Shown here: positions 36,343 through 38,991 of the stretch, one piece after another | Numbering within the stretch: position 1 is the first letter of the stretch | Layout of the letters: each line of letters begins with the position of its first letter | Assembly (NCBI GenBank): GCA_024742765.1 | Contig: JANSXT010000007.1 | Span: 1-64,000, forward strand | Direction of reading: 5' to 3' | Origin: Phyllobacteriaceae bacterium | GTDB taxonomy: Bacteria; Pseudomonadota; Alphaproteobacteria; Rhizobiales; Rhizobiaceae | DNA: 64,000 nt | Notes under the pieces: generated by a model | Told to the model about the DNA's origin: nothing | Databases searched by the model: none | The model's input: the letters and a program-made list of their open reading frames with translations, nothing else | Program-made: the position numbers and the translations under genes

Positions 36343-36822
36343 ATGGCACGCTATGTGATCCTGCGGCACGAGGACCGGACACCGCCGCGTGGCCGGGCGC
36401 CGGTCCTGATCGTCAGAGACGGCTGGTCGTGGATCGGTTTCATCGTGCCGCTGTTCTGGCTCCTGTGGCACAGGCTTTGGTTTGCGGCATTCGGCGTTTT
36501 CGCTGCCTCTCTGGCCATCGCGCTGTTGGCGCAGAACCCGCAATGGGCATCGCTCGCCCTTCCGTTCAACCTGTTGGTCGGGATTTTTGTGGGACTGGAA
36601 GGGCAAGGCTGGCGGATCGGCGCAGCCCGCCTGCGCGGTTACCGGCTGGCCGATGTCGTCGAAGCGGACACGCAAGAGGCCGCCGAGTTGCGGTTTGCCG
36701 ACATGACGAGCGATGGACCGGACGAAGCGTCACTTGCCGCCGCGATGGTGCCCGGTCGCGGGCTGGCGGCCGCCGAAGCGCCCGATTTCCTCTTTGCCGC
36801 GCCGGGCGGAGTGAACCGCTGA
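36343..36822 (+). CDS. DUF2628 domain-containing membrane protein
   Basis: Small membrane protein of 159 residues with unknown role. It begins [10 protein letters not shown] and has two or three helices ([53 protein letters not shown]). A soluble tail follows with [21 protein letters not shown]. It lies 4 bases after hisB and overlaps hisH by one base (TGATG), as in many rhizobia. Co-expression with histidine genes is clear, but no enzymatic link is visible. Confidence 0.85.
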
Positions 36823-37472
36823 TGCGCGTCGCGATCATCGATTACGGCTCGGGCAACCTGCGCTCCGCCCATAAGGCGTTCGAACGCGCTGCCCGCGAGC
36901 GGGGCATTGGCGCGGAGATCGAAGTCACCGCCGATGCTGACCGCGTCGCATCTGCCGACAGCGTCGTTCTGCCGGGCGTTGGCGCCTATGCCGATTGCCG
37001 TGCCGGCCTTGATGCCGTGCCCGGCATGCATGATGCGATCGACGACGCCGTCATCGCCAAAGGGCGACCATTTCTGGGTATCTGCGTCGGCATGCAGCTC
37101 ATGTCGACGCGCGGGCTCGAAAAGACGGTGACGCCCGGTTTCGACTGGATCAAGGGCGACGTGACGCTGATGACACCGTCCGATCCGGCGCTGCGCATCC
37201 CGCAGATTGGCTGGAACACGCTGGATGTGCGGCGCGACCACAAGCTGTTCGCCGGCATCCCGACGGGTCCGGACGGCCTGCACGCCTATTTTGTTCATTC
37301 CTATCATCTGGCCGCGGCGGAGGGCGCCGACATTGTTGCTACATGCGGCTATGGCGGGCCGGTGACGGCGGCGGTCGTGCGCGACAATATGGCCGGAACC
37401 CAGTTCCACCCCGAAAAGAGCCAGACGCTTGGCCTGGCCCTGATCGGTAATTTCTTGGAGTGGGCGCCATGA
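36822..37472 (+). CDS. hisH: Imidazole glycerol phosphate synthase subunit HisH
   Basis: Glutamine amidotransferase that feeds ammonia to HisF. Class I motifs: [19 protein letters not shown], the nucleophile Cys in [11 protein letters not shown], and His/Glu in [14 protein letters not shown]. Length is 216. The ATG overlaps the DUF2628 stop. Its own stop overlaps an ATG that opens the displaced hisA-like fragment at 37469. Confidence 0.97.
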
Positions 37473-37585
37473 GTCAGACCAAGATTCTCTTCCCCGCCAT
37501 AGACTTGAAAGACGGCCCAGCGCGGCGCCCGCAGCGGCCTGTCCGCGAGGACGCGCGAACGAAAAAGGGTACTGGCCATGTCTAA
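37469..37585 (+). pseudogene. Duplicated 5' fragment of hisA between hisH and the intact hisA
   Basis: A 38-codon reading frame starts [16 protein letters not shown] and then diverges ([15 protein letters not shown]...) until TAA at 37583-37585, just inside hisA. Its first 16 codons encode almost the same peptide as the hisA start ([14 protein letters not shown]). The DNA differs at only a handful of positions, all synonymous, and both copies use the ATA Ile codon that is rare at this GC content. The ATG overlaps the hisH stop (ATGA), the normal place for hisA to begin. This looks like the remnant of an older hisA start; it may still be translated. Confidence 0.8.
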
Positions 37586-38339
37586 GATCCTTTTTCCCGC
37601 CATAGACCTCAAAGACGGCCAATGCGTTCGGCTGAAGCTCGGCGACATGGATCAGGCGACGGTCTACAATGACGATCCCGCCGCGCAGGCCAAAGCCTTC
37701 GAGGATGAAGGGTTTCGTTGGCTGCATGTGGTCGATTTGAACGGTGCATTTGAGGGCGAAAGCGTCAATGGTGACGCCGTCGATGCGATCCTGTCGGCCA
37801 CGAATAACCCGGTCCAGCTCGGCGGCGGCATCCGCACACTGGCCGATATCGAACGCTGGCTCAACAAGGGCCTCGCCCGGGTGATCCTCGGCACGGTTGC
37901 GGTGCGCAATCCGGACCTTGTCCGGGAAGCCTGCCGCGCCTTTCCCGACAGGATCGCCGTCGGCATCGACGCGAAAGGCGGCAAGGTTGCCGTCGAGGGC
38001 TGGGCCGAGGCGTCCGAACTCGGCGCCATCGAACTGGCGCATCGGTTCGAAGGCGCGGGTGTCGCCGCCATCATCTTCACCGACATCGATCGCGACGGCG
38101 TGCTCACCGGCATCAACTGGGACGCGACCATCGATCTGGCCGAAGCGGTCTCGATCCCGGTGATCGCTTCGGGCGGCATGGCGTCGCTCGCCGACGTGGT
38201 CCGGATGGTCATGCCCGATGCTGAACGGCTCGAAGGCGCCATTTCCGGCCGCGCGCTCTATGATGGGCGTATCGACCCGCAGATCGCGCTCGGTGTGCTC
38301 GAAGGCATCCTGCCGCCTGACGAGGGTCTGTTCACCTGA
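37578..38339 (+). CDS. hisA: Phosphoribosylformimino-5-aminoimidazole carboxamide ribotide isomerase
   Basis: TIM-barrel isomerase (ProFAR to PRFAR) of histidine synthesis. Signatures: [16 protein letters not shown] with the catalytic Asp, [48 protein letters not shown] and [15 protein letters not shown]. Length is 253. The start follows AAAGGG and lies 105 bases after the hisH stop. The gap is taken up by the duplicated hisA start. panD follows after about 115 bases. Confidence 0.97.
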
Positions 38340-38454
38340 ACGGTCCGGCACCGCCGAATTTACCACAGCATGAACTTCCGCGCTGCCGTTAACCCCTGAT
38401 GCGCCGACCTGATGTACTGAACGGCCTCCATTCTCCGAAGGATGATGGCAGGTC

Positions 38455-38913
38455 ATGAAAAAGATTGTCGCGGCGAAACTGCACGGAATCTACATCACCG
38501 AGTGCGAACTGAACTATCATGGTTCGATCACGCTCGATCCGGACCATTGCGAACTGGCCGGCATCATGCCGATGGAGTTCGTCGAGATCTGGAACAAGCA
38601 GTCCGGTGCGCGGATCTCGACCTATGTGATCTATGGCGAGCGCGGCTCGAACTGCTGCATCGTCAATGGCGCCGCCGCCCGCACCTGTCAGGCCGGCGAT
38701 CAGATCATCATCTGTTCGTCAGACTATCGCGACGCGTCGGCCCTGACGGAGATGACGCCAAAAGTGGTGACGTTCGAACGCGACAATTCGGTTGCCGAGG
38801 TCCTCGAATACCGCACGCGACGCAATGCACGCGGCTGGTATGATTTCGAGATCGTCGATCTGGCAACCGAAGAAAAGCAGCCGATCCCGCTGATGGGACG
38901 AGCCGCCAACTGA
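38455..38913 (+). CDS. panD: Aspartate 1-decarboxylase (PanD-type, C-terminally extended)
   Basis: Pyruvoyl enzyme that makes beta-alanine for pantothenate and CoA. The double-psi barrel begins KIVAAKLHGIYITECELNYHGSITLDP. Self-cleavage should occur between Gly23 and Ser24 of YHGS, as in E. coli (24/25). SGARISTYVIYGERGS and INGAA-like IVNGAAARTCQAGDQIII also fit. It is 152 residues, about 25 longer than E. coli PanD, with an unknown acidic C-terminal extension. It lies inside the his cluster between hisA and hisF; coaA is 1.2 kb further on, which suggests shared CoA supply. Confidence 0.85.
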   Translation: MKKIVAAKLHGIYITECELNYHGSITLDPDHCELAGIMPMEFVEIWNKQSGARISTYVIYGERGSNCCIVNGAAARTCQAGDQIIICSSDYRDASALTEMTPKVVTFERDNSVAEVLEYRTRRNARGWYDFEIVDLATEEKQPIPLMGRAAN

Positions 38914-38940
38914 CCGGCGGCGTGTTGCCAGCGCCCGGCC

Positions 38941-38961
38941 GCGGCGCCTATATGGCGCCGC
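38941..38961. other. Perfect palindrome upstream of hisF
   Basis: GCGGCGCC-TATAT-GGCGCCGC forms an 8-base-pair GC stem with a five-base loop, 31 bases before hisF. No T run follows, so it is not a standard terminator; it could be a weak RNA hairpin shaping hisF expression. Confidence 0.45.
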
Positions 38962-38991
38962 GATATCACAATGCGCCAGCCGGATCACGCC

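Follow-up and report, generated by a model that had tools for sequence, protein, structure and literature searches.

The junction between hisH and hisA in a 64,000-nucleotide stretch of a Phyllobacteriaceae bacterium genome (GenBank assembly GCA_024742765.1, contig JANSXT010000007.1, positions 1 to 64,000; hereafter the window) carries two homologous hisA starts, separated by a 61 bp filler that contains a conserved hairpin. This filler probably belongs to a family of very small mobile hairpin elements that have no open reading frame (ORF) of their own and that enter the edges of genes while restoring the gene entered. Five parts of this reading are directly supported: the dispersal of the hairpin, its covariation, the duplication of gene edges with fixed polarity, an inverted copy of the target, and the overlap of a stop codon with the new start codon.

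Two hisA starts at the hisH-hisA junction

In the window, hisH (36822..37472, forward strand; NCBIfam TIGR01855, 194.9 bits) ends in a TGA that overlaps an upstream hisA start codon. A first-pass annotation of this DNA had described an ATGA-linked second hisA start after hisH, and sequence and frames bear this out: the frame begins at 37469 and runs for 38 codons, fusing a gene fragment, the hairpin and a spacer (37469..37585, forward strand), and its TAA (37583-37585) overlaps the hisA start by 8 bases, as had been stated. The second start (37469-37516) lies 109 bases before the real hisA start at 37578. The two were also said to be homologous, and they are: 32 of 37 aligned bases are identical, the differences after the Lys codon are synonymous, and an ATA codon is common to both. 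Intact hisA occupies 37578..38339 on the forward strand (NCBIfam TIGR00007, 259.5 bits), with a putatively element-borne start and a body native to the genus.

The conserved core of the hairpin lies at 37519..37559 (forward strand) and is partly decayed, with an inner stem of GCGG/CCGC; it matches covariance model R1 (50.8 bits, E 3.4e-9), of which the window copy was itself one of 26 training rows, and is further placed by the family alignment and covariation. Between the core and hisA, GTACTGGCC (37569..37577, forward strand) is an inverted copy of hisA sequence from the insertion point. It pairs, with one mismatch and one wobble, with GGCCAATGC at 37617..37625 (forward strand), where the sequence GGC CAA TGC in hisA would be the restored, intact target site.

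When the junction was compared with those of relatives, the double start was also found in the congener G004 and, in another genus, in G025 and G150, which excludes an assembly artefact, a caveat of the first-pass annotation, as well as chance. The stretches of G004 and G025 have 81-83% DNA identity over fragment, filler and gene start. The congeners G001, G002, and G003 do not have the arrangement at hisA. The body of the window hisA is 94-95% identical to those of the congeners G002 and G004 and 81% identical to that of G025.

Because the upstream fragment retains the hisH overlap and xQTK N-terminus typical of the genus, while the MSK N-terminus of the present start and its leader are common to the other genus, the upstream copy is evidently the displaced native start and the present hisA start evidently arrived with the element. 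The displaced fragment extends from the ATG to GACGGCC (37469..37517, forward strand), with the insertion point at its end, and in congeners hisA starts at the same hisH overlap. At glyS, empty sites read glyQ stop-G-ATG-glyS, and the same junction is preserved by the displaced fragment; by comparison with the empty sites in congeners, at both glyS and hisA, the upstream fragment is evidently the native edge. The ATA codon of both hisA copies is absent from the closest relatives read, and its presence in both suggests, from the sequence, that the copies exchanged material after insertion.

The first-pass annotation had offered the recombination of a related hisA allele, leaving the old start behind, or a partial tandem duplication kept as a leader peptide. 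Of the former, the displaced native start stands. A one-off allele replacement is not supported, and nor is a simple partial tandem duplication, because the filler holds a hairpin that is dispersed and accompanies duplicated edges of genes unrelated to one another. A hybrid gene made by homologous import, in which a related hisA allele and its own leader recombined in and no mobile element took part, would fit the congener-like fragment, the MSK start and leader common to another genus, and the native body. It is an unlikely account overall, as it fails to explain the same hairpin, polarity and inverted copy at hisF, glyS, cimA, ilvC, rnhA, rpsI, and tRNA genes. The window copy may nevertheless have reached the genus from a relative, and homologous import may well have been the route; similarly, spread at the same target between relatives may simply be homologous recombination.

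Dispersal over genes and genomes

When the whole junction served as query, side matches covered the filler alone, just upstream of hisF in other genomes, and a wider set was found by pattern and covariance-model searches. At those other genes, a copy of the first 45-50 bases of the gene is followed by the filler and then by the intact gene. Targets of this start type are hisA, hisF, glyS, cimA (citramalate synthase), and rnhA. Targets at 3' ends are ilvC, mmsA, groEL (identified from its GGMGGMM end), rpsI, and a serA-like (phosphoglycerate-dehydrogenase-like) gene, and the ends of tRNA-Gln and tRNA-fMet are targets as well. The hairpin in other genomes is nearly always beside a duplicated gene edge, and in every case read the order is displaced fragment, core, intact gene. 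Hairpins near tRNA-Leu, tRNA-Ile, and sdhB look alike, but the duplicated stretches there are short or decayed. A target-site duplication of fixed length was rejected because the duplicated stretches range from ~12 to 75 nt and end near start or stop codons; at locus L126, the duplication is 47/48 identical within the gene and has no identity outside it.

The stronghold of the element is the Rhizobiales, with matches in 24 of 150 genomes (E 0.05), several of them weak, and 1-3 loci per genome. In the rest of the class, 4 of ~237 genomes had matches at a stricter threshold (E 0.002), some of which are again weak; L246, at tRNA-fMet, is clear, and L247 lies among repeats. Within the window's own genome, the only match to the filler as a repeat was itself. 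Pattern searches of viral contigs gave five matches, among which no carrier phage was identified; a single one is a real-looking hairpin (L194, an IMG/VR viral contig, 2741-2781), with a 10-bp outer stem and in frame within an ORF. About eight matches from the collection scan are chance occurrences inside genes (L117, L121, L131, L136, L137, L139, L142, L146), and L210, L213-L217, L219, L220, L248, and L249 are weak or chance matches to the model.

Other settings of the hairpin were also seen. Oscillospiraceae from rumen and gut carry a longer, partly intergenic relative in several copies, with up to five matches in some. In these loci (L253-L269), a first hairpin (TCGG..GCGTTAAGAAAATGTGCCGGTGGCACATTTTTAGC..CCGA) precedes the same core, in the longer intergenic form with several copies per genome, and L267 has a duplicated terminator on its flanks. 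In Sphingomonas (L108, L111, L132, L147), the core hairpin lies inside long GGGGAGGGGGACC / GGTGGAGGGGC palindromic intergenic repeats. A core-only tandem array of six to seven hairpins at 46-bp spacing is present at L204 (G266, 1501-1863), where no gene-edge copies were seen, and L135 has two hairpins at 48 bp.

Structure and covariation of the hairpin core

The core is ~41 nt long and takes the form ...CCCGCA, a stem-loop, and GAGGACGCGCAAA. In consensus order, the outer stem is followed by a single mismatch, CC and GCA; a variable stem-loop comes next, and then GA, GG, A and the second arm of the outer stem. Among 76 distinct copies, 53 cells hold double changes that keep pairing, compared to 20.8 in shuffles, and all five inner pairs show compensated changes; relatedness inflates these counts, and conservation of the core sequence is overstated, since the copies were aligned by fitting to the model and a pattern had served to select the starting set. 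The compensations in the inner stem (GCGGC/GCCGC, GCGCC/GGCGC, and GGGGC/GCCCC) are independent of both model fitting and pattern choice. No Rfam family matched at the element with E up to 5, and searches of the literature by words and by core sequence, with subscription journals and bioRxiv outside their reach, returned no description of it.

The small imperfect hairpin, with conserved irregularities, could suggest a repetitive extragenic palindrome (REP) or miniature inverted-repeat transposable element (MITE) of an IS200/IS605-RAYT (Y1 transposase) system, and the intergenic copies in Oscillospiraceae are a further likeness to REP/RAYT. This origin is highly improbable. The Y1 transposase domain (Y1_Tnp, PF01797) was absent from G000 and from all 12 near-complete rhizobial carriers, the window genome included, and among the 17 genomes searched it was present in two (G226 and G682). 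Additionally, the copy number is low, and insertion with duplication of a gene edge is not the mode of such elements.

Inverted target copy and tandem arrays

In the gap between hairpin and gene, 7-12 nt repeat in inverted orientation the gene sequence found at the fragment end, that is, at the insertion point. Examples are CCGTGGATCA vs TGATCCACGG at ilvC and GCATGCGGG vs CCCGCATGC at glyS. At hisA, the inverted copy is exact in G025 (GCACTGGCC vs GGCCAGTGC) and in G150 (GCATTGGCC vs GGCCAATGC), unlike in the window, and both sides have changed in G150. With anchors and junctions placed by hand, pairing between spacer and true target averaged 8.27 over 12 target types, compared to 4.92 for deranged targets, whose maximum was 6.00, so that none of 3000 trials reached the true value; a control in direct orientation gave 5.25.

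In tandem arrays, the copies nearest the gene are usually the most gene-like (38, 40, and 41 of 43 in G036; 43 and 46 of 48 in G248; tied in G247). Such a gradient would follow from the entry of each new unit into the restored target, although unequal crossing-over would also build arrays. Carriers with arrays include Faunimonas, Aurantimonas, and Hoeflea.

An origin from ordinary tyrosine-recombinase islands with gene ends as targets, of which the attachment junctions alone would remain, would share this logic, as in such islands the gene end is restored, the old end is displaced, and tandem integration is possible. Nonetheless, it is improbable: the same ~41-nt core occurs at different targets that would need different integrases, units vary little in length (mostly 95-128 bp at gene starts), and only ~60-100 bp separate the edge copies, into which no integrase fits.

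Overlap of the fused frame with the new start codon

Thirty of 32 start-type units, which are not independent cases, have a frame that is open from the start codon of the fragment through the hairpin and has a stop ending -3 to +8 of the real start codon; hisA, hisF, glyS, and cimA attain this overlap with different phases, and other frames reach it in 2 of 64. The suggestion of the first-pass annotation that the overlap could couple translation of hisA to hisH thus gains support from related cases. The hairpin is used in all three reading frames. Given this use and the differing phases, the overlap is conserved and the peptide is not, so that coupling is apparently what is maintained.

The same evidence bears on whether the junction is a cis-regulatory leader, either an attenuator or a coupled leader peptide, that arose by partial tandem duplication and was kept for control of hisA. 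The conserved overlap and the complementarity of the leader to the early coding region would agree with this, but we consider it very unlikely, as the unit is also found at 3' ends and at tRNA ends, its distribution is sporadic, and its RNA stability is not unusual. A retained leader peptide, as the first-pass annotation had proposed, is unsupported because the hairpin is used in each of its three frames, and the peptide of the fragment frame decays in G004. Nor does the window peptide show the feature of an amino-acid attenuator leader, a conserved peptide rich in the regulatory amino acid: it has one His near its end and is not conserved.

A proposed route of insertion

If the filler is a mobile hairpin element, its unit would consist of the hairpin core, an A-rich, GGAAAGG-like spacer, the inverted target copy of 7-12 nt, and a second edge of the target gene, copied between its start or stop codon and the insertion point. 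Insertion inside a gene edge would strand the original edge as a dead fragment, and the copy in the unit would complete the gene. The target would be restored by this and would therefore stay open to further entry, from which tandem arrays would arise. Where the edge is a gene start, the frame of the old start would run via the hairpin and stop on the new start codon, and because it stops there, translation would stay coupled to the upstream gene or to the native ribosome site. We infer that movement could proceed through a circle of roughly 104-136 nt, or an equivalent, that joins the gene at a point x1|x2: a circle of core, spacer, inverted copy, and gene edge up to x1, opened into x1|x2, would yield the observed order of parts and leave x1|x2 intact for the next round. 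The end of the fragment would pair with the inverted copy around the core, and the inverted copy could recognise the target for an enzyme supplied in trans.

Several points weigh against this account. Rhizobial genomes have only 1-3 loci each, and many copies that share a target appear to be inherited, which leaves recent jumps unproven. No mobilising enzyme was found and no circle was seen. The search pattern accounts for part of the conservation of the core, and the window unit, as RNA, folds no better than shuffles (z -0.30). The rnhA cases have no stop-on-start overlap. A clear inverted copy is lacking at the chosen junction in L112, L114, and L206 and is weak in rpsI.

Relation to known systems

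The nearest logic to that of the element is that of mORF gene hybrids and of ordinary gene-end integrative elements. In fungal mitochondria, mORFs are mobile endonuclease ORFs that make hybrid genes (atp6 in Allomyces; atp6, atp9, cox2, and nad3 in Glomus): a substitute gene end is brought in, the native end comes to lie beyond the insertion, and the hybrid gene is transcribed (PMC3630166). Here too a native end is displaced and a substitute end stands in the gene, as seen from the hisA N-termini in comparison to congeners and from the glyS empty sites. In contrast, mORFs act at 3' ends and have an ORF for a homing endonuclease, whereas the present element is at 5' and 3' edges and at tRNA genes, with a conserved hairpin and an inverted target copy. 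There is no homing endonuclease ORF in the window insert and no room for one, the fused frame being its sole ORF. Tyrosine-recombinase elements of gene ends and tRNA genes duplicate the edge, rebuild the gene with the element's copy, displace the fragment, and can integrate in tandem. The element likewise restores the gene edge and displaces the old one, but it is ~100-130 bp long, has no integrase, and uses one core for many targets.

Integron attC sites are also small folded hairpin units with a variable terminal stem, and the fragment end and inverted copy enclose the core in the manner of R'' and R'. However, the stem here is target-specific, and the element carries a host gene edge and not a cassette gene. 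The attC R-boxes (RYYYAAC / GTTRRRY) were not seen on reading the aligned cores and spacers, a comparison that did not extend to a search for integron integrase genes. Rickettsia palindromic elements (RPEs) are small palindromes in alphaproteobacterial genes that likewise keep the frame open. They lie in frame inside genes and do not duplicate a gene edge, whereas the fused frame of the present element ends on a new start codon in 30 of 32 cases. REP/RAYT elements differ in the features given above, the present element having few copies and a duplicated gene edge. The element resembles IS110 bridge RNA (PMC11208160) in that non-coding sequence with complementarity to the insertion site, here the inverted copy, could guide targeting; the unit described here differs in having no recombinase gene, no donor guide shown, and a duplicated gene edge.

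Because mORFs and gene-end integrative elements carry their own enzyme, and REP/RAYT, RPEs, and attC each fail a tested feature, the element was filed under no known system. Small palindromic repeats as such are already known. A more far-reaching proposal, which we advance tentatively and hold to be somewhat doubtful, is a new minimal class of mobile elements: ORF-less units of ~100-130 bp, with a folded core, a ~9-nt guide complementary to the target and a copy of a host gene edge, integrated where the guide matches, in essential genes and without inactivating them, by an enzyme encoded by host or phage. If true, bacteria carry mobile DNA so small that nothing is encoded in it, and its entry into essential genes (tRNAs, ribosomal protein S9, glycyl-tRNA synthetase, and histidine enzymes) is safe because it supplies the missing edge. 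Guide-directed insertion becomes open to testing through the inverted target copy, and displaced starts would account for puzzling double starts that are liable to be misread by gene callers and in proteomics.

Gene order around the junction

The gene order in the window is hisB, a small ORF of weak similarity, hisH, hisA, panD, and hisF. The small ORF (36343-36822), in the gap between hisB and hisH, weakly resembles the Erum7620/ECH_0207 family, below the cut-off, and similar ORFs are found at the same place in relatives. In the window, panD (aspartate 1-decarboxylase; 38340-38991) sits between hisA and hisF, and in the congeners G002 and G004 hisF directly overlaps the end of hisA.
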